NCBI GenBank assembly: GCA_030652575.1
Contig: JAUSQI010000121.1
Location: forward strand, 1-49,483
DNA: 49,483 nt
Direction: 5' to 3'
From: Stagnimonas sp.
Lineage (GTDB): Bacteria > Pseudomonadota > Gammaproteobacteria > Nevskiales > Nevskiaceae
Shown here one piece after another: positions 1 through 32,220 of the stretch; within the stretch, counting starts at the first letter, position 1, and every line of letters begins with the position of its first letter. The notes beneath the pieces are model-generated. The model was not told where the DNA came from, made no database searches, and was given only the letters and a program-made list of their open reading frames with translations. The position numbers and the translations under genes are program-made.

Positions 1-442
<442 letters not shown>

Positions 443-582
443 ATAACGCTCAAACATTCTATTGTTGAGAGCCGTTAAGCCAAACCTTTAAGTATTGAGA
501 ATATACAAACGATTACTTGTTCAACTACAGATCTATTTATTACGCTGATTGACGGCCCACTGGCGTCAGTTAGATAACAGTT
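443..582 (+). other. 23S-5S intergenic spacer, no tRNA
   Basis: About 140 nt of AT-richer spacer separate 23S and 5S. I see no tRNA cloverleaf or T-loop consensus. The stretch presumably contains the 3' processing stem of 23S and the 5' side of the 5S precursor stem. Only short imperfect complementarity is visible (CTCAA and TTGAG arms near 448-471). Confidence 0.6.
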
Positions 583-700
583 TGCTTGGCGGCAATAGCG
601 AGTTGGAACCACCTGTTCCCATCCCGAACACAGAAGTGAAACGACTTAGCGCCGATGATAGTGTGGCATTAGCCATGTGAGAGTAGGACACTGCCAAGCT
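583..700 (+). rRNA. rrf: 5S ribosomal RNA
   Basis: A ~117-nt sequence starts TGCTTGGCGGC and ends CTGCCAAGC, so its two ends pair as 5S helix I. The internal conserved block CCCATCCCGAACACAGAAGTG (about 615-636) is the diagnostic loop B/helix III region. It follows the 23S gene in the same orientation, in the usual 16S-23S-5S order. The ends are set by helix I pairing and may shift by one or two bases. Confidence 0.97.
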
Positions 701-710
701 CCAAACACGA

Positions 711-743
711 AACCCCGATTCTGATGAATTGGGGTTTTTTGTT
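711..743 (+). terminator. rRNA operon intrinsic terminator
   Basis: An 11-bp stem (711-721 with 727-737, one G-U pair, 4-nt loop) is followed by a run of six T residues and then GTTG. It lies 11 nt after 5S, so it terminates the rRNA operon. The other side of the hairpin is followed by TCGTG on the minus strand, so it is a poorer terminator for the opposing tlpA-like gene. Confidence 0.92.
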
Positions 744-768
744 GTTTCTGTTTTTATTGGTTAAAAAG

Positions 769-1296
769 TCAATGCGTGTCGGTTTTTATTTCCAGCACTT
801 CAAGCGCGCGCGCTTCCAGATCTGCGCCATAGCCTTTGCCATAGCCGTAATAGATGAATTTCACTACGCCGGTAGGACCGATGATATAGGCACTGGGTAG
901 TTTGCGTGGGGCAAACTCACGAGTTCCAAGACCCAGCAGGTCCATGATTACAGGATAGTGAACTGGATGCTCCTTGAGGAAAGCGATCGCTCTATCCGGG
1001 TCATCGTCCAGATTCACCCCCAAAATCTCGAAGCGTTTTCCATGCCCGGCCTTGATCATCCGGCTGCGTAAGGTTTCAAGCTCGGGCATCGAGATGATGC
1101 AGGGCCCGCACCAGCTGGCCCAGAAATCCACGATGAGAACCTTGCCGCGAAAGTCGGAGATTCGATATTTGCGATCTTCCAGCAGGCTGCGTCCAAAAAT
1201 ATCTGGCGCCTGCTGTCCAGGCTGTACTGCCTGCGCCAGAGTCGAAACAAACAGGCCACCAAGAAGGAAGGCCGTGCGTGAGAGTGCAGTAGGCAT
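769..1296 (-). CDS. TlpA/ResA-like thioredoxin-fold disulfide reductase
   Basis: A 175-aa exported thiol:disulfide oxidoreductase. Residues 1-23 form a signal peptide (hydrophobic LLGGLFVSTLAQA). The thioredoxin fold follows, with the redox motif WCGPC (Cys63 and Cys66) after VDFWAS. The insertion around ELETLRSRM and the cis-Pro region KLPSAYIIG are typical of the TlpA/AhpC-TSA-like family. Family members keep periplasmic cysteines reduced, for example for cytochrome c maturation or a partner enzyme. No ccm genes are nearby, so the substrate is unknown. The gene faces the rRNA operon and lies 17 nt downstream of the pldA stop on the same strand, so the two may be co-transcribed. Confidence 0.9.
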   Translation of the reverse strand: MPTALSRTAFLLGGLFVSTLAQAVQPGQQAPDIFGRSLLEDRKYRISDFRGKVLIVDFWASWCGPCIISMPELETLRSRMIKAGHGKRFEILGVNLDDDPDRAIAFLKEHPVHYPVIMDLLGLGTREFAPRKLPSAYIIGPTGVVKFIYYGYGKGYGADLEARALEVLEIKTDTH

Positions 1297-19587: not shown

Positions 19588-20226
19588 TCACTGCGGCGGT
19601 AGCTTGTCGCTCAAGGCATCGCTGAACTGTTGTGCCGGTGTGGGGCCCAGCCAACCACACTGCTGAACTGGCGCAGGCTCGGTAACGGCCGAGACCTGCG
19701 GCTGATTGCCGTACGGTTTGAGATCTTCCTGCCCACCACGCGGCGCGTAGTGGCAGGCCCAGACTTCGGCCGCATCACAGCGCGCGCGGCCGCAGCCGAG
19801 TGCCGTGGTGGTTTCCCAGATCACTTGCAGATAAGCACCGCACTGGCTGCCAAGGCCGGGCTTGCAGCGGTGCGTCGCGTGGTCGTATTGCTGCCCCTCG
19901 CGGATCCAGCGATCAGAGGCTTCAGCGGAGGTGCGCTTGTAGCCTTGGTACGGCGCATTGCCGTAGGCGCGGAACAGGTTCTGTCCGGTGGTTTCGCGCC
20001 GCTTGGGGTCCGGGTCGTAACGCAGCGTGCAGTTTTCGCCGGCCAGTTGATCGGCCCAGGCCTGCGCTTCACCCGCCAGCGCGCCGGACCATGCCAGCGG
20101 TGCCACACCCACGGCGCGGCGCGCGGCATTGTGGGCATCGACCAGACCCGCAAAGTCCGCGGGCATCTCTGCCGCACGGATCGGCAGAGCCGTGAGGGCA
20201 AGCAACAACTGAGCGAGCAGACGCAT
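19588..20226 (-). CDS. Secreted CAP-domain (SCP/PR-1) protein
   Basis: 212 aa from ATG 20226, which begins a signal peptide MRLLAQLLLALTALPIRAAE. The CAP domain follows: LVDAHNAARRAVGVAPLAWS, then GENLFRA-like GQNLFRAYG, HRCKPGLGSQCGAYLQVIWETTTALGCG (the CAP2 signature with conserved His and Glu) and ACHYAPRGG. Cys pairs indicate export. Bacterial CAP proteins are mostly uncharacterised; sterol binding or peptidase roles are known in eukaryotes. It is divergent from kynU with 76 nt between starts. Confidence 0.9.
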   Translation of the reverse strand: MRLLAQLLLALTALPIRAAEMPADFAGLVDAHNAARRAVGVAPLAWSGALAGEAQAWADQLAGENCTLRYDPDPKRRETTGQNLFRAYGNAPYQGYKRTSAEASDRWIREGQQYDHATHRCKPGLGSQCGAYLQVIWETTTALGCGRARCDAAEVWACHYAPRGGQEDLKPYGNQPQVSAVTEPAPVQQCGWLGPTPAQQFSDALSDKLPPQ

Positions 20227-20302
20227 GGTCGAATCCCTTCGTGGAACACCCGCGCAGTTTGCCACCGTGACGCCGCCCGCGTGCCGTGCCACGCTTGTTG
20301 GC

Positions 20303-21562
20303 ATGAGCCATCACCCCACCACGCGCGAGGCCTGCGCGGCACTCGACGCCACCGATCCGCTGGCCTCCTTCCGTGCGCGATTCAGCGTGCCGCCGGGACC
20401 GATCTACCTCGACGGCAATTCACTCGGCGTGCTGCCCGCCGCAACTCCAGCGCGTCTCGCGCAAGTGATCGCAGAGGAATGGGGTGCAGGGTTGATCCGC
20501 AGCTGGAACAGCACGTCGCGCGGCCCCGGCTGGGTCGATCTGCCGCAACGTCTGGGCGACAAGCTCGCCCCTGTGATCGGTGCCGCAGCAGGCACGGTGC
20601 GCGTGTGTGATTCCACGTCGATCAATCTCTTCAAGCTGCTTGCTGCTGCACTCGCACAACGTCCAGGCCGTACGGTCATCGTCAGCGAGGCGGACAACTT
20701 CCCGACCGATCTCTACATCGCAGAAGGCCTTGCCGCACTACTTGGCCAACAGCATGTATTGCGGCTGGTGGCGGCAGACGACATCGAGGCTGCGCTGGAT
20801 GAAGAAGTGGCAGTGCTGCTGCTCAGCCACGTCAACTACCGCACCGGTCGCTTGCACGACATGGCAGCACTCACGGCGGCTGCGCACGCCAAGGGTGCGT
20901 TGACGCTCTGGGATCTGGCGCACTCCGCTGGCGCCTTGCCGGTGCAGCTCGCCGAGGCCAGAGCCGATTTCGCCGTGGGCTGTGGCTACAAGTATTTGAA
21001 CGGCGGTCCTGGCGCACCGGCGTTTCTCTACGTCGCACCCTCGCATCAGGCGCAACTGGCAGCACCGCTCTCCGGCTGGTTTGGCCATGCGCGGCCGTTC
21101 GCGTTCGAGCCTAGCTATGCGCCCGCGCCCGGTGTGGATCGCCTACTGGTCGGCACGCCGCCGGTGTTGTCGATGGCCGCACTCGAAGTCGGCATCGACC
21201 TGATGGCGGAAGCGGACATGTATCAGCTGCGGCAAAAATCCCTGTGCATGAGTGCGCTGTTTGCAGCACGCATCGAGCATGAGTTTGCCGATGTGGGTTT
21301 GCGCCAGATCAGCCCACGCGACGACGCCCGGCGCGGCAGCCAGGTGTGCTTCGCGCATCCGCAGGCCTGGCCGGTGATGCAGGCGCTGATTGCGCGCGGT
21401 GTGGTGGGCGATGTGCGGGCGCCGGATATTCTGCGCTTCGGGTTCACGCCGCTGTATCTGAGCTACACCCAGGTCTGGGATGCGGTGACGCATCTGGCCG
21501 AGGTGTTGCGAAACCGCGAGTGGGATGCGCCCGAGTTTCACCAGAAAAACAAAGTGACCTGA
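20303..21562 (+). CDS. kynU: Kynureninase
   Basis: 419 aa from ATG 20303 (MSHHPTTREA); an upstream in-frame ATG at 20225 would overlap the divergent CAP gene start and is not needed. A PLP-dependent fold-type I enzyme: YLDGNSLGVLP, CDSTSINLFK, HVNYRTGRLHDM, LWDLAHSAGALPV, and Lys230 in GCGYKYLNGGPGAPAF as the cofactor Schiff-base lysine. It cleaves kynurenine or 3-hydroxykynurenine to (hydroxy)anthranilate plus alanine in tryptophan degradation. No kynA or kynB is recognisable nearby, although a hydrolase gene follows 4 nt later. Confidence 0.95.
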   Translation: MSHHPTTREACAALDATDPLASFRARFSVPPGPIYLDGNSLGVLPAATPARLAQVIAEEWGAGLIRSWNSTSRGPGWVDLPQRLGDKLAPVIGAAAGTVRVCDSTSINLFKLLAAALAQRPGRTVIVSEADNFPTDLYIAEGLAALLGQQHVLRLVAADDIEAALDEEVAVLLLSHVNYRTGRLHDMAALTAAAHAKGALTLWDLAHSAGALPVQLAEARADFAVGCGYKYLNGGPGAPAFLYVAPSHQAQLAAPLSGWFGHARPFAFEPSYAPAPGVDRLLVGTPPVLSMAALEVGIDLMAEADMYQLRQKSLCMSALFAARIEHEFADVGLRQISPRDDARRGSQVCFAHPQAWPVMQALIARGVVGDVRAPDILRFGFTPLYLSYTQVWDAVTHLAEVLRNREWDAPEFHQKNKVT

Positions 21563-21566
21563 GCCA

Positions 21567-22493
21567 ATGACCAAGACCCTGTTCCTCGCTGCCGCACTCG
21601 CCATGTCCACTGTCGTCACCGCTGCTACGCCGCACCCGGCCACGATGCCGATCACCTGGAAGCAGGTTGCCGCCATGCCGCAGCCCCCAGCGGGCGAGAA
21701 GATCAGCTACGGCGAGGCACCGCAGCAGTTCGGCGAGTTGCGCGTGCCCAAGGGCAAGGGGCCGTTCCCGGTCGTGGTGCTGATCCACGGCGGCTGCTGG
21801 CTGGCCGCCTACGACTACCAGTACATCAACCCTCTCGCCGCCGCGCTGACGGCGCAGGGCATGGCGACCTGGACCATCGAATACCGCCGTCTCGGCGACG
21901 AGGACGGTGGCTGGCCCAACACGCTGCTCGACGTAGCGAAAGCCACCGACCATCTGCGCGTGATCGCCGAGACGCATCCCGTCGACACCGCGCGCGTCAT
22001 CAGCATGGGCCACTCCGCCGGCGGCCATCTCGCGCTCTGGCTGGGTGCCCGCCACAAGCTCGCGAAAACAAGTGAGCTGTATCTGCCCACACCGCTCGCC
22101 TTGAAGGGCGTGGTAGGCCTCGCAGCCATCACTGATCTCAACACCTACCGCGTCGGCCCCGTCGACAGCTGCAATGCCTCGGTGGATCAGCTGATGGGCG
22201 GCACGCCGACGCGGCACCCCCTGCGCTACGCAGAAGCCTCGCCGCGTCTGCTGTTACCGCTGGGCGTGCCACAGTGGCTGGTGCAGGGCGGCAAGGACCC
22301 GATCGTGCCGATGGAGTCCGTGCAGGCCTACGCGACGGCGGCGCGGCAGGCGGGCGACGACGGCACGGTCAGCGTCGACCCCGACCTCGGCCACTTCGAC
22401 CCCGCCGTGCCGCAAACCGCGCTCGGCGCGGTGGCGGTGGCGGCGGCACTCAACCTGCTGGGGCTGATCGACGAGCCTGCGCCGCGGCGTTGA
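21567..22493 (+). CDS. Exported alpha/beta hydrolase (esterase/arylformamidase-like)
   Basis: 308 aa. Residues 1-20 look like a signal peptide. The oxyanion motif HGGCW is at 74-78, nucleophile Ser150 in GHSAGG, and the late Asp and His are in GGKDPIVP and DLGHFD. The HGGxW motif is shared with BD-FAE/esterase-lipase proteins and kynurenine formamidases. With kynU 4 nt upstream, a kynurenine-formamidase role is tempting, but the apparent signal peptide would put it in the periplasm, which argues against it. It is likely co-transcribed with kynU. It converges on the M61 peptidase gene (3 nt between stops). Confidence 0.82.
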   Translation: MTKTLFLAAALAMSTVVTAATPHPATMPITWKQVAAMPQPPAGEKISYGEAPQQFGELRVPKGKGPFPVVVLIHGGCWLAAYDYQYINPLAAALTAQGMATWTIEYRRLGDEDGGWPNTLLDVAKATDHLRVIAETHPVDTARVISMGHSAGGHLALWLGARHKLAKTSELYLPTPLALKGVVGLAAITDLNTYRVGPVDSCNASVDQLMGGTPTRHPLRYAEASPRLLLPLGVPQWLVQGGKDPIVPMESVQAYATAARQAGDDGTVSVDPDLGHFDPAVPQTALGAVAVAAALNLLGLIDEPAPRR

Positions 22494-22496
22494 GCG

Positions 22497-24467
22497 TTAC
22501 GGCGTCTTCGCGCTGAGGATCGTCGTCAGACGATCCTTGTTGCTGTCGATGCGCACCAGCGTCGGGTATCGCAGGCCACCTGTGTAGCTGACTTTCACCG
22601 TGCGGTAGTGGTCGAGATTCTTCAGCAGCAGCTCGATCGGCTTCTGGTCTTCCTGCGCCATCTTGATCGCCGCCTTCAGGCGCTCGGGCTTGTAGCTGAG
22701 GCCGTTGACGGCCACCAGCGTGTCGCCCTTGAACAGACCCGCCTTGAAGGCGGGCGAACCCCAAACGACTTCGGCCAGTGCAGCTTCCTTCTCGATGCTG
22801 ATACCGAGTGAAAACAGGAAGTCGCTGAGCTTCGTGCGCTCTTCGACGCCCTTGACGTATTCGGTGGGTTTGTCTGTGAAGGCGAGTTTCCAGCCCGCGC
22901 GCTCCAGGCCTTTCAGCGGTGCGCCAGGGCCGTGGCCATCGAGGCGGCTGCGCAGAAAGCCCGCCCAGTCGTAGGGCGCGATGTTGCCGAGTGCGGCGGT
23001 GACATCGCCGAAGCGGAACGGCAGTGGCGCAAAGCTGTTGTCAGGCATCCCTGCCTGTGGCCCGAAGAAGGCGCGGGCAAAGTCATCCATGCCGCGCGTA
23101 TCGTTTGTGAGTTCGCGCAGCTGGCTGTCGACCTCCAGCCAGATCAGCAGGCCTTCGTTGTAGTAGTCCTCGGTGCGCTGGTAGCTGGTGTGTGAGAGGG
23201 GCCGGCGCGCGGTGAGGATGGGTTGATAGACCGTGTCCTGCACGCTGCGCCACTCGCGGCCGGGACGATTGAGATCCAGTGTCGCGGCGATGTAGGCGAT
23301 GGATTCGCGCGTGAACGGCTGGCTCCACAGGCCGGAGCGGGAGGCGAGCACCTGGCCCCAGAACTGCGTCTGCCCCTCGTAGACCCACAGCAGCTCGTTC
23401 TGCAGCGGTGTGTTGAAGTTGCCCACGGACTGCCCGGCGGGGCGGCGGAACTTGCCGCACCAGCTGTGCACGAACTCGTGCGGCAGCAGCGAGCGCTCGA
23501 TCTGCTTCTTGTCCCACTCGGTGAAGTACTCGCTCGACACACCGTTCTCGCTGGAGCGGTGGTGTTCGAGCCCGATGCCGCTGAACTGGTCGGACAGCGA
23601 CAGCAAAAAGTCGTAGCGGTCGAAATGGCGTGCGCCGAACAGCGCCTGCGCCTCCGAGACGAGCTTGGCGTGCAGGGTGAGCTGCGGCGTGGTGGCGAGC
23701 AGGGCGGCATCGGAGTCGGCCACCATGTTCAGTCGCACCTTGGCACCGTTCATTTCGCCCAGCGCCACTTTGCGGAAGTGCTGGCCGGCGAACACCGGCG
23801 AGTCCACCAGCGTTTCGAGCGGCACCACCTCGTAGCTCACCAGGTCGCCGCTGCGCGCGACTTCAGCAAGCGCGCTGGCGGCGTCCCAATCCGGCGGCAG
23901 CTGGATGCTGGCCTGCACCTGCGTGCCCGCCATCGAGCGGCTGGCGGGGTAGAGCACGACCGCGTTCCATTGCAGGCCGACGATCTCCGGCGTGGCGACG
24001 ATGCGGCCCTGTTCCTTCACCGCTGGCGTCGCGTATTGAAACGCGACTTCGAGAGCGCTCGCGCCCGGCGGCACGGTGAGGTGGAAGGCGTAGACGTCCA
24101 GCGGGTCGCGCGTCCATTCCACCCGCTCGCCGTTGGCGGTGATGATCAGCCCCGCCAGCGCGTCGATCGGCCCGCGCGGCGCATGGTTGCCCGGCAACCA
24201 TTGCGGATACCAGAGTTTCAGCGGGCCGGGCGTGACCGGAATGGTCTCGCGCACCTTGAACAGACGGCGGTCGAGATCGGTGAGATCGACGTGGAGGACG
24301 AGCGTGCCGCGGTAGTCCGGCGCCGAGCCGACCGTCGCGACGGCCGGGGCCACGCTGGGCGGTGGCGTGGCCGCGACCGGGGCTTGCGCCAGCGCTGCAA
24401 AAGACAAGAGCAGGCTGCCCGCGAACAGCAGGGCGCCAGCAGGCAGGCGAGAGAGGGCGGCAAGCAT
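22497..24467 (-). CDS. M61-family metallopeptidase with C-terminal PDZ domain
   Basis: 656 aa with signal peptide (residues 1-28). An N-terminal beta domain with [13 protein letters not shown] is followed by the gluzincin motif HEFVHSW (His330, Glu331, His334) and the third zinc ligand Glu365 in [15 protein letters not shown]-like domain is at about 555-625 ([20 protein letters not shown]). The M61 family (glycyl aminopeptidase type) acts in the periplasm or outside the cell on small-side-chain N-termini. It is complete, of normal family length, and divergent from msrA. Confidence 0.93.
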
Positions 24468-24595
24468 GTCGGGAGTCCCAGCGAAAGGCGAAAGTCAGTG
24501 TAGCCCGCAGGAATCGTTCCATTGAAGATGCGCCGCAGCGCCCACATGAAGAAGCCTGGCGCTACACGGCGCATCAGCCTCCAGGAGTCATGGTC

Positions 24596-25225
24596 ATGCT
24601 CGGCAGTTTTTTCAGCGGCGGCAGCCGCACCTCGCTCAAGGATTTCCCTGATCCGCTCATCGACACGCCGCTGGCAGCGGCGCCGGGCGACGCATTGGCC
24701 GTGCTGGCCGGCGGCTGCTTCTGGTGCACCGAGGCGGTGTATCGGGAACTCGATGGCGTGACCGCAGTGGTCTCCGGCTATTCCGGCGGCAGCGCGGACG
24801 CCGCCAACTACGAGGCCGTCTGCACCGGCCGCACCGAGCATGCGGAGGTGATCGAGATCGCCTACGACCCGGCACGGATGAGCTTCGGCAAGCTGCTGAA
24901 AATCTTCTTCGCAGTCGCGCACGATCCGACCCAGCTCGATCGCCAGGGCAACGACGTCGGCCCGCAATATCGCTCGGCGATTTTCCATGCCGATGCCGAG
25001 CAGAAACGCATCGCCGAGGCCTACATCGCGCAGCTCGATGCCGCCAAGGTGTTCGCCAAGCCCATCGTCACGCGACTGGAGCCGCTGGAACAATTCTTCG
25101 AGGCGGAGCGCTATCACCAGAACTACGCCGCGCTGCATCCGGGCCAGCCGTACATCGCGGGTGTCGCACTGCCAAAGGTGGAGAAGCTGCGGGCCTACTT
25201 CGGTGAGGCCTTGAAGAAAGCCTGA
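24596..25225 (+). CDS. msrA: Peptide-methionine (S)-S-oxide reductase
   Basis: 209 aa from ATG 24596. The in-frame ATG at 24590 lies only 2 nt after the GGAG at 24584-24587, whereas 24596 gives a good 8-nt spacing. The catalytic motif [11 protein letters not shown] has nucleophile Cys41 and a second Cys44; this CFWC form occurs in one MsrA subtype, in place of the CFWG of E. coli. The remaining blocks [36 protein letters not shown] and YHQNY are standard. It repairs S-epimers of methionine sulfoxide in proteins using thioredoxin. No msrB is adjacent. Confidence 0.95.
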
Positions 25226-25335
25226 GCCCTACAACGGCCGTCTCCAAGCATTTCGATTCAAGCCTGCTTCATGCGGGTCTCCGAAGGTGTGCCGCTGCCG
25301 CAGACCTCTGATGCGGCCCCCACTTCGGAGAGCAC

Positions 25336-26184
25336 ATGAATCCCGCATCTTTCATCCACGCTGGCAAAGACACCAACGGTGCTGCCATCGAGCTGCATTA
25401 CCAGGACCTCGGCAGCGGCAAGCCGGTGGTGCTCATCCACGGCTGGCCGCTGACCCATGCGAGCTGGGAGCACCAACTCAGCGAACTGCCCAAGCATGGG
25501 CTTCGTGTGGTGGCCTACGACCGCCGCGGCTTTGGTGCGTCATCGAAGCCCTGGAGCGGTTACGACTACGACCATTTCGCAGACGACCTCAAGGCCGTGC
25601 TCGACACGCTCGATCTCCACGACGTGACCTTGGTCGGCTTCTCAATGGGTGGCGGTGAAGTGGCGCGCTACATGAGCCGCCACGGCGGCGCACGCGTCAG
25701 CCGCTGCGTATTCGTCGCGGCCGTGCCGCCGTATCTATTGAAGACCGATGACAACCCGGACGGCGTGCCGGGCGAAGTGTTTGAAGAGATGAAGGCTGGC
25801 ATCCTCAAGGATCGTCCCGCCTTCCTCACCGACTTCTGCAAGAAGTTCTACAACGTCACGCTGCTCAACAAGCCGGTGAGCGAGGCGACGTTGGAGTGGT
25901 CGGCGCAGCTGGCATATCCCGCCTCGCCCAAGGCGACGCTGGATTGCGTTGACGCCTTCTCGCGCACGGACTTCCGCGCTGACCTCAAATCAGTCACCGT
26001 GCCAACCCTCATCATCCACGGCGCGGACGACAACACCGTGCCGCTGGCGGTGAGCGCCGCACGCACGGCCAAGCTGTTGCCGCATGCCGAATACAAGGTG
26101 TACGGCGGCGCGCCGCACGGCCTCAACGTCACCCACAAGGATGAGTTGAACGCCGATCTGGTGCGCTTCATCAACGCCACCTGA
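25336..26184 (+). CDS. Alpha/beta hydrolase (non-heme haloperoxidase-like)
   Basis: 282 aa cytoplasmic protein. The oxyanion region HGWPLTHASWEHQ is followed by YDRRGFGASSKPW, nucleophile Ser103 in GFSMGGGEVARY, then the Asp region IIHGADDNTVP and catalytic His in GAPHGLN. This set and the spacing are typical of the cofactor-free chloroperoxidase/esterase family, which hydrolyses esters and shows perhydrolase side activity. The natural substrate is unknown. It ends at a strong palindromic terminator. Confidence 0.92.
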   Translation: MNPASFIHAGKDTNGAAIELHYQDLGSGKPVVLIHGWPLTHASWEHQLSELPKHGLRVVAYDRRGFGASSKPWSGYDYDHFADDLKAVLDTLDLHDVTLVGFSMGGGEVARYMSRHGGARVSRCVFVAAVPPYLLKTDDNPDGVPGEVFEEMKAGILKDRPAFLTDFCKKFYNVTLLNKPVSEATLEWSAQLAYPASPKATLDCVDAFSRTDFRADLKSVTVPTLIIHGADDNTVPLAVSAARTAKLLPHAEYKVYGGAPHGLNVTHKDELNADLVRFINAT

Positions 26185-26243: not shown

Positions 26244-29186
26244 TCAGTCGGCGAGCGGATGGCGTTTCCGCTTTCTGATGGCGAGTGCCGCCATCAATCC
26301 GGCCAGCAGCCACAGGCCGGTGCTGCCGCCGAAGCGCCCGCTGCCCGCGACCGGTGGTGTCGGTGTCGGCGTGATGACCGGCGGCGTGCCGGGTGGTGGC
26401 GGATCGACGATCAGTTTCGGAATCGCATAGGTCCAGATACCGCGTCCGAAGGTCGCAGCGAAGATCGTGTCCACCTCGTCCGGTGTCGCCTTGGGTTTGA
26501 AGCGCATCACGTTCACCGGCACGTTGGGCAGCGTGTTGCCGAGCGGCGCCCAGTTGCTGCCTTTGTTGTCGCTGGAGATGAACGGCCCGATGTCGGTGCC
26601 GACAATCAGCTGCTCGCCCGCCGCACTCTTGTAGAGCAGCACGGTGTTGGCCTGCGCACGGGGAATGTTGCCGCTGATGTCGGTGAAGCTCTCGCCCGCA
26701 TCGGTGGATTTGAACACCGTGCCGGTGCCGATCTTCGCCGCGTTGGGGTCGCCGAAACTGCCGGGCGGCCGCATGTTGCCGGCATAGCCGGCCAAGGTGA
26801 CGTAGATCGTTTTCGGATTCGCCTCGTCCATTTCGATGCCGGCGATGAAGCGGCTGTCCAGCCCCGCCGCCGTCGCAAAGTGCCAGCCATCCGCCGTGTT
26901 CTTCTGCGGCGGCAGTGTGCCGCCGACATTGGTGGCAATGCCGTTGGCAAAGCCGGTGTCGATGGCCACCGAGCCGCAGTCGCCGCAGAAGCCGACGTAC
27001 ACGTTGGGGCCGTAGACATGCATGGTCGAGGTGGTGCGAATGGCATTGGTCACCGGATTGGTGCCGAGATTGAACACTTCCGTCCAGGTGCTGCCGGTCA
27101 CGGTCGGCGCGTTGAGCGTCGAAAAGATCTGCTGCGCACCCGTCAACAGGTGATTGGCGTCGAGCGGATCGAGCACGAACCAGTTGGCGAAGTTGGGGCG
27201 CACGTAGGGCGGCGCGATGCTGCTGCTGCTCGCGCCACGATCAATGGTGCGACGCAGGCCGCCGTTCTGGCTCTCGGTGTAGGCGACATCGGAGTTGTCG
27301 GGGTCGACCTCGGCAAAGAAGCCGTCGGCACCGAAGTCCATGATCTGCTCGCGCGTATCAGGCTCGATGTGACCGCTGCCGTTGTCCTGGTGGCCCTGCC
27401 AGACGGTGCCGTCCTTCGCCACCGCCACGCCGTACGGCAGCAGCGCGTAGAAGCCGTCGTTCGAGCCCGCGCCCCAGCCGGCTTGCGTCATCGGCTCCAG
27501 CATGCCGACGCACTGCTTGAACACGCCGCCGTCGTTGCCGACGAACAGACACACGCCGCCCGCGCCATCGGGGATGTAAAGACCCGCGTGCTGGTCGGGA
27601 TGCGTGCTGGTGCCGATGAGGGCGGTGTAGCGGCCGATCAGCTCGAAGTCCTGCGGGCTGGCGGCCTGCACGGTGCCATCGAGGGGCACGGTGATGTTCT
27701 GCATCACTTCCTCGAGGCCGTAGGTCATGCGCAGCGGCACGCCGGTGACCGGCACGGCGCGGGTCGGGTCGATGGCGATCCACTGGTTGTACCAGGCCTG
27801 CGCGCCGGGGAAGTTGATCGAGCCGGGGGTGAGCACGATCTCGCGCGCACCGGCCATGCGGACCCAGCTCAGACCGAAGTCCGACGACACGTAGAGGCCG
27901 TTGATGTTGCTGCTGATGAGGCCCAGCGGCAGGTCGAGAATCGGTTCCAGCAGGTTGAAGCCCTCGTTGAAGCTGACGGCGTCCTGCACCAGCGCATAGA
28001 GATAATTGTGGTCCTGCGTCTCGCCTGTCGTGGTGCCGAACTCGATGCGGCCGCTGCGTGCGGCAGGTGCGAAGCCGATCGGCAGCGCGGCGTTGATCGG
28101 TTCGTCGTCGATGCGGCTGAAGCTGCCGGCCACGCCGGTGTCCGAGCGGTACAGACCGTTGCCCGGCCCCTGCGGTGTCACGCCATCGGCAAAGAAGGCC
28201 TGGCCGGCGCGCCAGCCGATGGCGGCGACCACCGGGCAGCCGGTGGCGTCGCAGGTTTCATCGGTGGCGCCACCGGGGCCGCGAATGGCGACATCGGTGA
28301 CCACGTTGGCGAACTGGCATTGGCTGCTGATGTCCTCCTTGCCTGCACAGTCCGGCGTGGACGGCAGCCGCACGTTGACGAAGCTGCGGCCGGCGTCGGT
28401 GCTGCGGAACAGGCCGATCGACGAGGCGATGTAGAAGATGTTGGGATGGCCGGGGTCGAAGCGGGCGTTGTAGACCTGCACCCCGTTGGGGAAGCCGGTC
28501 GAGCGCGTCCAGGTCGCACCGAGATTGGTCGTCCAGTACGCGCCGAGGCCCATGTAGCCGTTGTTGCCCATCACCGATTCGCCACCTGCCGCCAGCAGGG
28601 TGCCGTCGCTGCCGGAATCCGGCGTGCCGTCGCCGTTGGCATCGGGCGACCAGATCACGCCGCCGTTGACCTGCGTCGGCAGCCTGTCGCCGACCGACAC
28701 CCACTGATCGGCCAGCGTGGTGATGTCGCCATCGACCGCCGTGCTCATCCAGATGCCGCCGGTGCCCACGGCCGCGAACAGCCGCTGCTTTTCCGGGTCG
28801 TAGGCGAAGTTGTCGACGCGCGCGCTGTAGAACGACGGCCCGGCAATGAGCTGGCCGGTGGCATAGGGCTGCCAGTCACCGTCGGCTTTGGGGATGAGTT
28901 TCTTCTGCGGTTGCAGTGCCGCTTTCTCGGCGAGCGCGGCGTCGATCAGCGTCGGGTGCGGCGCTGGGCCGCGCAGCAGCGGGTGCTGGCGCGGTGCCTC
29001 GAATTCCTGCCCGTGCACGATCGGGTTGCTGCAATGGCGCCCGCTCTGCTGCGCGCGTGCGCTCTGGATGGGCTGGGTGCCGTCCGGGCAGTCGACCGGT
29101 ACGGGGTTCTGGAAATACAGCGCAGCCGACAAGCCGATGGCGGCCAGGGCGACGAGAGCGGGCGGGTGACTGAATGGACGACGCAT
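26244..29186 (-). CDS. Giant secreted Asp-box (BNR) propeller protein with GlyGly-CTERM-like tail, copy 1
   Basis: 980 aa. The N-terminus has a positively charged start and a hydrophobic segment (about residues 9-27, signal peptide or anchor). The body is full of Asp-box/BNR-type turns, for example STDAGRSFVNVRLP, SSDFGLSWVRM, TTNLGATWTRS and STDAGESFTDISG. These are typical of sialidase/sortilin-type beta-propellers, but catalytic sialidase residues are not evident. The C-terminus has a Pro/Thr linker (PPVITPTPTPPV), then GRFGGSTG, a hydrophobic helix and RKRKR, resembling a GlyGly-CTERM/rhombosortase sorting signal. It shares architecture and many identical stretches with the next gene. Function is unknown; it is probably cell-surface. 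Confidence 0.82.
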   Translation of the reverse strand: MRRPFSHPPALVALAAIGLSAALYFQNPVPVDCPDGTQPIQSARAQQSGRHCSNPIVHGQEFEAPRQHPLLRGPAPHPTLIDAALAEKAALQPQKKLIPKADGDWQPYATGQLIAGPSFYSARVDNFAYDPEKQRLFAAVGTGGIWMSTAVDGDITTLADQWVSVGDRLPTQVNGGVIWSPDANGDGTPDSGSDGTLLAAGGESVMGNNGYMGLGAYWTTNLGATWTRSTGFPNGVQVYNARFDPGHPNIFYIASSIGLFRSTDAGRSFVNVRLPSTPDCAGKEDISSQCQFANVVTDVAIRGPGGATDETCDATGCPVVAAIGWRAGQAFFADGVTPQGPGNGLYRSDTGVAGSFSRIDDEPINAALPIGFAPAARSGRIEFGTTTGETQDHNYLYALVQDAVSFNEGFNLLEPILDLPLGLISSNINGLYVSSDFGLSWVRMAGAREIVLTPGSINFPGAQAWYNQWIAIDPTRAVPVTGVPLRMTYGLEEVMQNITVPLDGTVQAASPQDFELIGRYTALIGTSTHPDQHAGLYIPDGAGGVCLFVGNDGGVFKQCVGMLEPMTQAGWGAGSNDGFYALLPYGVAVAKDGTVWQGHQDNGSGHIEPDTREQIMDFGADGFFAEVDPDNSDVAYTESQNGGLRRTIDRGASSSSIAPPYVRPNFANWFVLDPLDANHLLTGAQQIFSTLNAPTVTGSTWTEVFNLGTNPVTNAIRTTSTMHVYGPNVYVGFCGDCGSVAIDTGFANGIATNVGGTLPPQKNTADGWHFATAAGLDSRFIAGIEMDEANPKTIYVTLAGYAGNMRPPGSFGDPNAAKIGTGTVFKSTDAGESFTDISGNIPRAQANTVLLYKSAAGEQLIVGTDIGPFISSDNKGSNWAPLGNTLPNVPVNVMRFKPKATPDEVDTIFAATFGRGIWTYAIPKLIVDPPPPGTPPVITPTPTPPVAGSGRFGGSTGLWLLAGLMAALAIRKRKRHPLAD

Positions 29187-29259
29187 GTGAATCCCCTTGA
29201 ATGGTTTTTACTGCTTGAACCGGCAGCCACGGCGTGCCGCAGCGAAATCACAAAGTAAA

Positions 29260-29285
29260 GAAGGCCCGGCGGATACCGGGCCTTC
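29260..29285 (-). terminator. Intrinsic terminator after propeller copy 2
   Basis: A perfect 10-bp GC-rich stem (29260-29269 with 29276-29285, 6-nt loop). On the minus strand it is followed by CTTTACTTTG, an imperfect U tract, so it is a moderate terminator for the 968-aa gene and separates its transcript from copy 1. Confidence 0.72.
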
Positions 29286-29313
29286 GCACAGCAATCAAAT
29301 CGACCGCAGGCCT

Positions 29314-32220
29314 TCAGTGTCGGCGGCGGCGCAGGGCCGCCATCGCCAGCAGGCCGAGCAGGGCCGCGCCGCCCAGGCTGCCGCCGAAGCGCCCGGTCGT
29401 CGCACCCGGCACCGTCGGTGTCGGCGTGATGACCGGCGGCGTCACGACGCTGCCGTCCTTGAAGGCGTAGTTCCAGATGCTGCGGCCGAAGGTGGCGGCG
29501 AACAGCATGTCGGGTTCGTCGGCCGTGGCCTTTGGCTTGATGCGGATCATGTTCACCGGCACGGCGGGCAGGCCAGTGCCGAGCGTGGTCCAGCTGGCAC
29601 CCGTGGCGTCTTTGCTGATGAACACGCCGATGTCGGTGCCGGCCAGCAGCTGGTCGCCCTTGATGATGATGCTGGCAACTTGTGCCACCGGCAGGTCGCC
29701 CGTGACATCGACAAAGTCATCGCCCGCGTTCACCGACTTGAACACCGCGCCGCTGCCGATGTTGCCGGCGTTGACGTCGAGGAAGCTACCGGGCGGGCGC
29801 AGGCCCGAGAGGTAGCCGCCGAGTGCGACGTAGACGATCTTCGGGTCCACCGGATCAATCGCGATGCTGGTGATGTAGCGGCTGGGCAGACCGCGCTTTT
29901 CGGCAAAGCGCCAGCCGGCATCGGTTTCTGCCACGCGCTCCACGCCTTCGGTGACATTGGTGGCGAGCACGCTGGCAAAGCCGGTGTCGTTGCCGCTGGC
30001 GCCGCAGTCACCGCAGCCGCCCACGTAGACGGCCGAGCCCTGCACTTCCATGGTGGTGGTGGTGCGAATCGCGCCGGTTTCGGGGTTGGTGCCGAGGTTG
30101 AACACCTCAACCCAGCTGTCACCCGTCACCGTCTGTGCATTGTCGGTTTCGTAGATTTCCTGCGCGCCAGTGACCATGTGCTGGGCATTCAGAGGGTCCA
30201 TGCGGAACCAGTTGTCGAACATCACGCGCGTATAGGTCGGCGCGATGCTGGTGTTGCTGCCGCCGCGATTGGTGGTGCGCACCAGACCGCCGTTCTGGGT
30301 TTCGTAGTAGGCGACGTCGCTGTTGTCGGGGTCGACCTCGGCGTAGAAGCCATCGCCGCCATTGGTCTGGAACAGCTTGAAGTCGCGCGCCGGGTCGAGC
30401 AGGCCGGAGCCGTTGTCCTGATTGCCGAAGTAGACGGTGCCGTCCTTCGCCACGCCGAGGCCATACGGCAGCATGGTGTACATGCCGGTGTTCGCACCCT
30501 CACCCCAGCCGAAGTTATTCATGATGCCGTTGGCCGCCACGCACTGCTTGAAGATGCCGCCGTCATTGCCGACGAACAGGCACACGCCGCCATCGTCGGT
30601 GGCCACGTAGATGCCGCCCTGCTGGTCAGGGTGGGTGGTGCTGGGGAAGATACCCGTCAGATTGAAATAGGTGCCGATCACATGAAAGTCCGAAGGGCCG
30701 GCTTGTGCAATGCCGTTGAGCGGCACGCCCGCCGCAGTGGTGCTTGGCGTGCGGTTCTGCCAGACCTCTTCCAGACCAAAGGCCATGCGAGTGGGGATGC
30801 CACCGACGTCGCGGGTGGGGTCAATCGCCAGCCACATGTTGTACCAGGACTGAATGCCCGCACCGCTGCCCAGCGCGGCACCAATCAGGGCGATCTCTGA
30901 GCCGGTGATGGGGACGATGACCTCGATGGTGTCGGCCATGCGGACCCAGCTGTCGCCAAAGTCAGACGATACGTAGATGCCATTGAAGGTCGAGGGGAAG
31001 CCCAGCAGCAAGGCAACTCCGAGAATGGCATCCAGCGTCGGCTCGCCAGTGACACCGCCGTTGAACAGCACCGCGTCCTGCACCATGGCGTAGATGTAGT
31101 TGTGATCCTGATCGGGGCCGAAGGCCACGTTCATCTCGATGCGGCCGATGCGATCCTGCTCGGTGAAGCCGATGGGCAGGAGATTGCTGGCGGCGGACAC
31201 ATCGAGTTTCCCGAAGCTGTCCACTTCACCAGTGTTGCTGCGGTAGAGACCGTTACCCGAGCCCTGCACGGTCACACCGTCCTGAAAGAGCTGGGCCGAG
31301 CCGGTGCGGTAGCCCACACCCGCCAGCACCGGGCAGCCTGCGGCATCGCAAACCGCATTGGTGCTACCACCAGGGACTTTCACCACCACATCGGTGACCA
31401 TGTTGGCGAAAAGACAAGGACCGGTGAGGTCTTCCACACCTTCGCAGCCGGGGGCCGTGGGCAAGCGCACGTTGGTAAAACTGCGGCCCGCGTCCTCGCT
31501 GCGGAACAGGCCCTTGCCGGAGGCGATGTAGACCAGCTCGGGGCGCGATTGATCGACCTGCACGCGGAAGACGATGGTGGCGTCCGGGAAGCCCGTGGAC
31601 TGGGTCCAGGTGGCGCCCATGTCGTTGGTCCAGAACGCGCCGAAGCCGTTGTACATACCGGAGCCCATCACGCCCTCGCCACCCGCGGCCACCACGGTGC
31701 CGCCGCCAGCGGGCGTCCAGGCCACGCCGCCGATGATCTGCGTGGGCAGGTTATCGCCAATGGAGCGCCATGCGTTGCCGATGGTGGTCACGTCGCCATC
31801 GACCGCCTCGCTCATCCACACGCCGCCGGTGCCCACGGAGGCAAACAGCCGCTTGTTCTCGGCGTCGTAGCTGAAGTTGTCGACGCGCGCGGCCTGGAAG
31901 GCACCCGAGCTGTCATCGAGATTGCCCACGCCGTATTCGCGCCACTCACCCGCAGCGCCGGGGATGTCGGCCTTGCCGGCGATGCGGGCTTTTTGCTGCA
32001 GCACCGCGCTCATGGCACCCGGCTCGACCACGCCCACCTTCGCGGCGCGCACATTCTTGGCCTGCATCAGCTGGGCGGGCGACTCCGGGCCCTTGAAGGC
32101 AAGGCGGGCCGCACGGCGTTCCGCCTGTTGCTGATGTTGAAGGGCTACGGATGCGACAAGCGCCATACAAACAGTGGCAAGAGCGGCGGCAAAGACGGTG
32201 GGGGTAGCAAAACGGCGCAT
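29314..32220 (-). CDS. Giant secreted Asp-box (BNR) propeller protein with GlyGly-CTERM-like tail, copy 2
   Basis: 968 aa paralogue of copy 1, in the same orientation 127 nt upstream. A signal-type N-terminus (MRRFATPTVFAAALATVCMA) is present. The propeller body has SEDAGRSFTNVRLP, SSDFGDSWVRM, TNDMGATWTQS and SVNAGDDFVDVTG. Shared landmarks with copy 1 include RVDNF-YD, LFA-VGTGG-WMS, CLFVGNDGG-FKQCV, PDNSDVAY and CGDCG. The C-terminus is PPVITPTPTVPG, then GRFGGSLG, a hydrophobic helix and RRRRH. Before the ATG there is GGAG 8 nt upstream. A weak -35/-10 pair TTGATT/TAATTT (32263-32268 and 32242-32247 on the minus strand, 15-nt spacer) is possible. Function is unknown. Confidence 0.82.
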   Translation of the reverse strand: MRRFATPTVFAAALATVCMALVASVALQHQQQAERRAARLAFKGPESPAQLMQAKNVRAAKVGVVEPGAMSAVLQQKARIAGKADIPGAAGEWREYGVGNLDDSSGAFQAARVDNFSYDAENKRLFASVGTGGVWMSEAVDGDVTTIGNAWRSIGDNLPTQIIGGVAWTPAGGGTVVAAGGEGVMGSGMYNGFGAFWTNDMGATWTQSTGFPDATIVFRVQVDQSRPELVYIASGKGLFRSEDAGRSFTNVRLPTAPGCEGVEDLTGPCLFANMVTDVVVKVPGGSTNAVCDAAGCPVLAGVGYRTGSAQLFQDGVTVQGSGNGLYRSNTGEVDSFGKLDVSAASNLLPIGFTEQDRIGRIEMNVAFGPDQDHNYIYAMVQDAVLFNGGVTGEPTLDAILGVALLLGFPSTFNGIYVSSDFGDSWVRMADTIEVIVPITGSEIALIGAALGSGAGIQSWYNMWLAIDPTRDVGGIPTRMAFGLEEVWQNRTPSTTAAGVPLNGIAQAGPSDFHVIGTYFNLTGIFPSTTHPDQQGGIYVATDDGGVCLFVGNDGGIFKQCVAANGIMNNFGWGEGANTGMYTMLPYGLGVAKDGTVYFGNQDNGSGLLDPARDFKLFQTNGGDGFYAEVDPDNSDVAYYETQNGGLVRTTNRGGSNTSIAPTYTRVMFDNWFRMDPLNAQHMVTGAQEIYETDNAQTVTGDSWVEVFNLGTNPETGAIRTTTTMEVQGSAVYVGGCGDCGASGNDTGFASVLATNVTEGVERVAETDAGWRFAEKRGLPSRYITSIAIDPVDPKIVYVALGGYLSGLRPPGSFLDVNAGNIGSGAVFKSVNAGDDFVDVTGDLPVAQVASIIIKGDQLLAGTDIGVFISKDATGASWTTLGTGLPAVPVNMIRIKPKATADEPDMLFAATFGRSIWNYAFKDGSVVTPPVITPTPTVPGATTGRFGGSLGGAALLGLLAMAALRRRRH

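Follow-up and report, generated by a model that had tools for sequence, protein, structure and literature searches.

What do two adjacent genes for giant Asp-box propeller proteins do for a Stagnimonas cell, and where in the cell do their products end up? The pair, here called propA and propB, lies on a contig of 49,483 nucleotides from Stagnimonas sp. (JAUSQI010000121.1; "the window" below means this whole stretch), a lineage of the Nevskiales in the Gammaproteobacteria. Starting from sequence features, co-occurrence, conservation, and orthology, from which localisation, processing, pocket geometry, and activity are extrapolated, we read the two products as envelope Asp-box propeller proteins, most like a twin propeller of the GH74 type, which would be anchored on the cell surface by rhombosortase, would carry a functional site in their middle part, and would descend from an old duplication into A and B lineages; we put the probability of this reading at about 0.6. 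Both the GlyGly-CTERM anchor system and Asp-box propellers are already known, and the literature matches listed include no paper on the propA/propB family, a result that says little given that subscription journals are mostly outside the coverage.

The preliminary description, made from the DNA letters alone, had placed two long genes of one orientation here, and both open reading frames (ORFs) are indeed present on the minus strand, propA at 29314..32220 (968 residues, from the ORF list) and propB at 26244..29186 (980 residues). propA comprises an N-terminal hydrophobic, signal-like segment, a propeller region of approximately residues 84-921, a linker, and a GlyGly-CTERM-like tail, and its tandem paralogue propB has the same architecture; sequence inspection finds that both proteins begin with MRR followed by a hydrophobic stretch. 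The CGDCG and CLFVGNDGG elements reported earlier occur in propA and propB alike, and the claim of at least four Asp-box turns in each holds under a strict pattern ([ST]x[DN]xGxx[WFY]), whose matches start at residues 198, 241, 418, and 829 of propA (n = 4) and 219, 262, 434, 827, and 872 of propB (n = 5), counts reached in 0 of 2000 shuffles of each sequence. What had been taken for a tandem duplication with strong divergence is borne out by BLASTP, which aligns the two as true paralogues with 472 identities in 874 columns (54%, E = 0). Protein searches brought up relatives in Stagnimonas aquatica (locus L052), in a Nevskiaceae metagenome-assembled genome (MAG; L053), and, more distantly, in a "Frankiales" MAG (L054) that we take for an actinobacterium; identical coordinates equate the genomes of the first two with G422 and G423, both classed in the same genus as the window. 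Both genes look selected as coding sequences because comparison with the G422 copies gives 0.24-0.25 for nonsynonymous (dN) and 0.64-0.67 for synonymous (dS) divergence. A 999-residue ORF antisense to propB (26259..29258, plus strand) is probably the shadow of a GC-rich gene.

The C-termini, on which the preliminary description is silent, bear on where the proteins go. The propA tail (29323..29385, minus strand) reads GRFGGS, a hydrophobic segment, and RRRRH, and the propB tail (26268..26330, minus strand) GRFGGS, a hydrophobic segment, and RKRKRH. A profile search of the genome with the GlyGly-CTERM model TIGR03501 scored propB at 18.1 bits and propA at 15.9 bits (cut-off 15.5) and listed 19 places in all, 13 of them over the cut-off. 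Contigs C29 and C88 of the same genome each carry another full-length paralogue, and every one of the four copies has a GlyGly-CTERM-like tail at its end. Across the order, we counted tails in 49 distinct members with a closed reading frame, three of which are C-terminal fragments, leaving aside the actinobacterial rows and six frames truncated at the end of a contig or locus; a loose tail rule was met by 49/49 and a strict GG by 46/49, the other three carrying GN or GS. Among window ORFs of at least 150 residues the rule passes only propA and propB (2/136), and in loci L140-L152 its loose form is satisfied by 25 of 524 ORFs, of which we read 19 as family members, leaving 6/505 non-family ORFs; under the strict rule, 4 of the 22 passing ORFs are non-family. 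One non-family ORF of 831 residues near a family member (L150, genome G414, contig C10) also ends in a GG-hydrophobic-basic tail. The linkers ahead of the tail are short and rich in Pro/Thr in the window proteins and are long Gly/Ser repeats of varying length among close relatives (for example, L052:6001-9039(+) and L053:6001-9057(+)), and two members (L098:723-4085(+) and L101:598-3960(+)) seemingly have an extra Ig/PKD-like segment between propeller core and tail.

The machinery that such a tail calls for is encoded in the same genome, which has a rhombosortase on contig C117 (TIGR03902, 110.3 bits; cut-off 84) and, as the type II secretion component covered by the search, the secretin GspD (TIGR02517, 560 bits; cut-off 351). 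Given the GlyGly-CTERM-like tails together with this rhombosortase and secretin, propA and propB are predicted to be rhombosortase-anchored cell-surface cargo, and the surface system suggested in the preliminary description gains in substance, the more so with the LPXTG-like tails of actinobacterial relatives described below. The proteins would first be exported by the Sec pathway, and the GG-hydrophobic-basic tail would then hold them in the inner membrane, where rhombosortase would cut at the GG and the new C-terminus would be joined to a lipid, a chemistry proposed by analogy with VesB of Vibrio cholerae, for which PMC6219818 describes the tail mechanism. The type II secretion system would finally deliver the protein to the exterior side of the outer membrane, a step for which, according to a 2026 paper (PMC13393428), a secondary signal is needed, tail and processing being sufficient for membrane association.

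Several observations weigh against this prediction. Single-protein scores are borderline: the propA score barely exceeds the cut-off, the C88 (14.1 bits) and C29 (13.5 bits) copies fall just under it, and a full-length protein scan gives propB 13.1 bits, also under it, and does not list propA at E ≤ 1. The tail rule was written post hoc, after the tails had been seen, and it also passes an LPXTG-type member (L140), so that it does not separate the two tail types. Rhombosortase is present in 16 of the 17 family-positive genomes of the order, the exception being G430 (88% complete, approximately 410 contigs); however, 48 of the 68 family-negative genomes have it too, and because it is so common there the co-occurrence is weak and not phylogenetically independent, for which reason we dropped it as proof and keep it as consistency only. 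These scores, along with a helix drawn at residues 950-967 in the propA model, would suit a tail that is a membrane anchor and nothing else, leaving an inner-membrane protein that faces the periplasm. We regard this as very unlikely given the GG placed just ahead of the hydrophobic stretch in nearly all order members, the number of TIGR03501 matches that exceed the cut-off in this rhombosortase-bearing genome, and the LPXTG-like tails of the actinobacterial relatives.

Those relatives were collected from a class sample around the genome of L054, in which the family reaches E ≤ 1e-50 in 25 of 394 genomes (with two candidates scored for each). By a loose motif rule, used without background control, an LPXTG/LAXTG-like ending is found in 14 of 29 closed-frame homologues, 13/16 at or above 340 bits and 1/13 below. 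The LPXTG model TIGR01167 is over its cut-off in one of nine homologues scanned and just under it in another, and a sortase was found in all 15 genomes searched among the 25, some of which have a homologue that does not carry the motif. In L117 and L136 a hydrophobic segment and RRRR are preceded by LPTLG and VPSVG, respectively, in place of LPXTG, possibly variant sorting motifs. One propeller family thus appears, from its C-terminal sequences, to be served by two anchoring machines, sortase in Gram-positive and rhombosortase in Gram-negative bacteria. Exchange of tails inside one family has already been described for other proteins in PMC3237569; a word search of that text did not find "propeller", "BNR", "sialidase", or "glycosyl hydrolase".

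If the proteins are displayed on the surface, what would they present there? In an alignment of 56 rows that includes the window proteins, 16 charged or amide residues are conserved in at least 95% of rows, and 12 of these fall within residues 457-623 of propA (30352..30852, minus strand): Q457, D467, E484, E485, H530, D532, Q533, D553, Q601, D602, N603, and D623. The last eight of these together with E484 and E485 are invariant in 56/56 rows. Alignment with propA places the corresponding propB site at residues 463-621 (27324..27800, minus strand), where ADG replaces the GDG of propA. Six plasmid records matched the family, two of them only over residues 782-916, and the other four, which represent three phyla (Streptomyces, Gemmatirosa, Microvirga, and Rhodococcus plasmids) at 24-26% identity, were compared at the site: H530, D532, D553, Q601, D602, N603, and D623 are retained in 4/4, Q533 in 3/4, and E484/E485 in 1/4. 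Going by the known anatomy of propellers, the site motifs would fall in loops of successive blades lining one face, as the enzyme sites of propellers do.

Binding or catalysis is the probable purpose of this conserved and uncharacterised site. In a displayed protein, the middle part would offer the motifs H-x-D-Q, DGG, and QDN with one more Asp, joined by GLEE in the present family, as a functional site that would bind an extracellular polymer, with hydrolysis somewhat likelier than not. The earlier statement that the proteins show no catalytic signature therefore needs to be divided: it stands for the GH33 sialidases and for the first catalytic Asp of GH74 (both discussed below), and it does not stand as a general statement, since both proteins carry a Glu/His/Asp/Gln/Asn site that could be an active site. 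The conserved polar residues could also be structural or metal-binding. If so, the propellers might be scaffolds and the proteins adhesins or structural surface components, with conservation reflecting turns or calcium; they are large, surface-tagged, and multi-copy (four here and seven full-length matches in G423), and glycines make up many of the invariant columns. We nevertheless think such a role decidedly unlikely, given that the charged and amide conservation is gathered in one 167-residue stretch and does not recur from blade to blade.

The fold offers a partial guide to what such a site might do. Models from AlphaFold, each built from seven alignment rows, are poor (propA, predicted local distance difference test, pLDDT, 57.1 and predicted template modelling score, pTM, 0.62; propB core, 60.4 and 0.48). 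With either model as query, Foldseek fills its first 23 rows with GH74/xyloglucanase entries; for some rows the GH74 label comes from the profile search, PMC2716378, or background knowledge. Here too there are results on the other side: query-normalised TM-scores to these entries are low (0.27-0.46 over the 23 rows of the propA model), and in VIA-align, run with the same model, the leading matches were mostly single WD40 propellers and the 50 listed included no GH74 chain. Ranges from VIA-align (approximately 69..923) also raised the idea of a single propeller, closed by its first and last blades, into which a middle module is inserted, a reading that we have not used given that the middle is the low-confidence part of the model. 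A profile of the 56 members searched against the PDB had the GH74 structure 6p2m as its best match (E = 1.5e-21), followed by the BNR propeller 3b7f (9e-20) and, more weakly, dispase autolysis-inducing protein (DAIP, 1.2e-5), Ycf48 (0.0026), and sortilin (0.017 and weaker). The alignments printed cover single blades, the middle region alone matched solved structures weakly and likewise through single blades in the alignments printed, and the propA sequence by itself has no PDB match at E ≤ 1. In PMC2716378, GH74 is classed as two propellers formed from one continuous stretch of Asp-box blades. On sequence and model comparison, then, propA and propB are Asp-box propeller proteins most like GH74, whose arrangement of propellers they may share; with models of low confidence, the earlier proposal of two stacked propellers with a shared conserved pocket is plausible.

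Three more specific family assignments were considered and set aside. The Pfam model Sortilin-Vps10 matches the two proteins partially (E = 3.4e-7 and 5.4e-7; 29.8 and 29.2 bits), under its cut-off of 33 bits and over 71 and 64 of its 446 positions, and the 10CC domain is not listed for window proteins at E ≤ 1 in the Pfam scan. Sialidases of GH33 have an FRIP or YRIP motif; neither propA nor propB contains [FY]R[IV]P, and their BNR matches are weak. As for GH74 itself, the profile alignment shows a catalytic turn of ADIGG in 2cn2 and AAIGG in 2cn3, and we take the change from Asp to Ala in 2cn3 to mark the catalytic residue; at the aligned position 130 of propA, Asp is found in 0/56 rows (G 36, A 13, M 3, I 2, T 1, and L 1) and in 0/4 distant relatives, and we set aside a GH74 enzyme on that ground; the profile searches yielded no readable alignment around the second catalytic Asp. 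Partial matches to NF045728 ("F510_1955 family glycosylhydrolase") reach 60.5 bits in propA and 42.8 bits in propB against a cut-off of 175, and no Ycf48 model is listed for either protein at E ≤ 1 in scans of the family libraries.

Even without the first GH74 Asp, the proteins could be glycan-active enzymes from a GH74-like ancestor whose rearranged Asp/His/Glu catalytic site in the middle part cleaves an extracellular polysaccharide, as might be expected from nearest solved relatives, by sequence and by Foldseek, that are xyloglucanases, from acidic residues D532, D553, D602, D623, E484, and E485 that are the same in every row of the alignment, and from a His/Asp/Gln/Asn core kept in the four distant plasmid proteins. 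Set against this are the missing Asp, the retention of E484/E485 in a single distant relative, and the content of the neighbourhood: among eight window neighbours scanned, one looks glycan-related, an alpha/beta hydrolase at 21567-22493 whose best Pfam match is BD-FAE (E = 3.1e-28). BD-FAE is, we take it, a feruloyl-esterase-type name, and the gene is a hint at glycan esters, though the hydrolase family is broad. We hold this enzymatic role to be quite possible, at somewhat under even odds.

Before other neighbours are considered, the two lineages deserve attention, given that the preliminary description had inferred two related but non-identical roles. The family is found in 17 of 85 genomes of the order and in 2 of 369 genomes sampled class-wide (limit 1e-30, two candidates scored per genome, so that members may be missed), and a scan of viral contigs found no family relative. 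In a tree of 58 rows, 38 Nevskiales rows and 20 actinobacterial rows lie on opposite sides of a branch with support 89; midpoint rooting, in a tree whose root was not tested, nests the former inside the latter. In the window, G422, and G425, the A copies and the B copies belong to different clades, each of which also includes one row from outside the genus, and the tandem pair of G025 is a separate duplication. Identities are 62.7-90.8% for A with A, 68.2-94.1% for B with B, and 53.5-57.4% for A with B, and both copies are present and separate in the four genomes of the genus where both are readable. We conclude from these sequences that propA and propB are old, maintained lineages, which agrees with the idea of distinct roles. 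Fixed radical differences between A and B occupy 26 of 918 ungapped columns and are scattered along the sequence; three of them (607, 612, and 622) lie close to the site, a number too small to carry an argument. The old duplication would have persisted as two lineages whose ligands presumably differ.

Neighbouring genes and the other tagged proteins of the genome bear on a further possibility, namely that propA and propB are receptors that bind peptides or proteins in the manner of sortilin or DAIP, docking, capturing, or modulating surface peptidases. In three other genomes of the genus, the gene directly before propA encodes a CAP-domain protein (19588..20304, minus strand in the window), and the gene directly after propB an M61 glycyl aminopeptidase with a PDZ-like domain (22497..24467, minus strand). 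The synteny check proposed earlier thus finds the order CAP, propA, propB, M61 contiguous in those genomes; the window has the same genes rearranged, in a block (19588-26184) that contains the CAP protein, kynureninase, alpha/beta hydrolases including the BD-FAE-like one, MsrA, and the M61 peptidase. Between propA and propB themselves lie 127 bases with a terminator-like hairpin (29260..29285, minus strand), a pattern match only, from a scanned region with 11 such sites against a mean of 4.2 in shuffles; given this hairpin, the tandem pair may form separate transcription units and not necessarily an operon. The C88 copy adjoins a subtilase gene and the C29 copy an alpha-2-macroglobulin gene. 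A distant relative on the Rhodococcus plasmid pRB98 (L156:4981-6026(+), annotated as YCF48-related) is likewise near an S8 peptidase gene.

Outside the four propellers, 15 tail-bearing places are listed, of which 10 were scanned for Pfam domains; six have peptidase domains (M4 twice, M36, S8, trypsin, and M12-like), and the remaining four comprise one GDPD, one with PKD repeats, and two with no Pfam match. Several of these candidates are pieces cut at locus ends, and two of the ten (C145 and C154) are under the TIGR03501 cut-off. Contig C86 has a second tandem GlyGly-CTERM pair, M4 (thermolysin-type) metallopeptidases of 875 and 921 residues with the same kind of tail (L013:3727-6354 and L013:6566-9331, minus strand). 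The peptidases in these places and neighbourhoods, with the partial sortilin matches and DAIP in the profile search, fit a receptor. On the other hand, the sortilin match is confined to a small part of the model with no 10CC domain listed, a protein-binding face would be expected only rarely to stay so invariant across phyla, and the evidence from neighbours is anecdotal, having no control; we therefore consider a receptor rather unlikely. Co-tagged peptidases and neighbours hint at a role alongside surface degradation and nothing more, and the earlier suggestions of carbohydrate binding and protein scavenging have circumstantial support from them. For the envelope propellers as we read them, a glycan is somewhat likelier than a peptide as the polymer bound.

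A wider proposal would make the multi-phylum Asp-box propeller superfamily with the H-x-D-Q/DGG/QDN/Asp mid-protein site a new class of extracellular hydrolases, whose surface branch entered the Nevskiales once from an actinobacterial-type source, swapped LPXTG for a GlyGly-CTERM tail, and multiplied by repeated tandem duplication. We offer it as speculation that is more probably wrong than right by a wide margin. Should our reading of propA and propB be correct, it would give a likely cell-surface address to those members of the "BNR/VPS10-like" group that databases label sialidase, YCF48-related, or hypothetical, and would name the residues to mutate in this family. It would also add a case of one family that apparently relies on sortase for display in Gram-positive bacteria and on rhombosortase in Gram-negative ones, in support of the view that the jobs of the two machines are equivalent.

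Among known systems, the GH74 xyloglucanases (2cn2/2cn3, 6p2m, and 1sqj) resemble propA and propB in supplying the best Foldseek rows and profile matches, in their Asp-box blades, and in that the lengths of our proteins would fit two propellers; they differ in that the propeller family has G, A, M, I, T, or L at the position of the first catalytic Asp and carries its own H-x-D-Q/DGG/QDN/D site and a C-terminal surface tag. Vps10/sortilin shares the Asp-box blades and the partial Pfam match but is set apart by a score under the cut-off and by the 10CC domain, which was not listed here, and Ycf48/HCF136 and NF045728 have BNR/Asp-box blades in common with propA and propB, which fall far below the NF045728 cut-off. 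With the GlyGly-CTERM cargo described in Haft and Varghese 2011 (PMC3237569) and PMC6219818, VesB among them, the pair shares the tripartite tail of GG, hydrophobic, and basic segments, and its genome encodes both rhombosortase and type II secretin, as expected of cargo; VesB is a serine protease, whereas propA and propB are an Asp-box propeller pair whose processing is predicted. The closest parallel for the change of anchor is the vault/VWA family in PMC3237569, whose members carry either GlyGly-CTERM or LPXTG depending on the lineage, as in the propeller family, whose LPXTG-like members sit in taxa that we take for actinobacteria.

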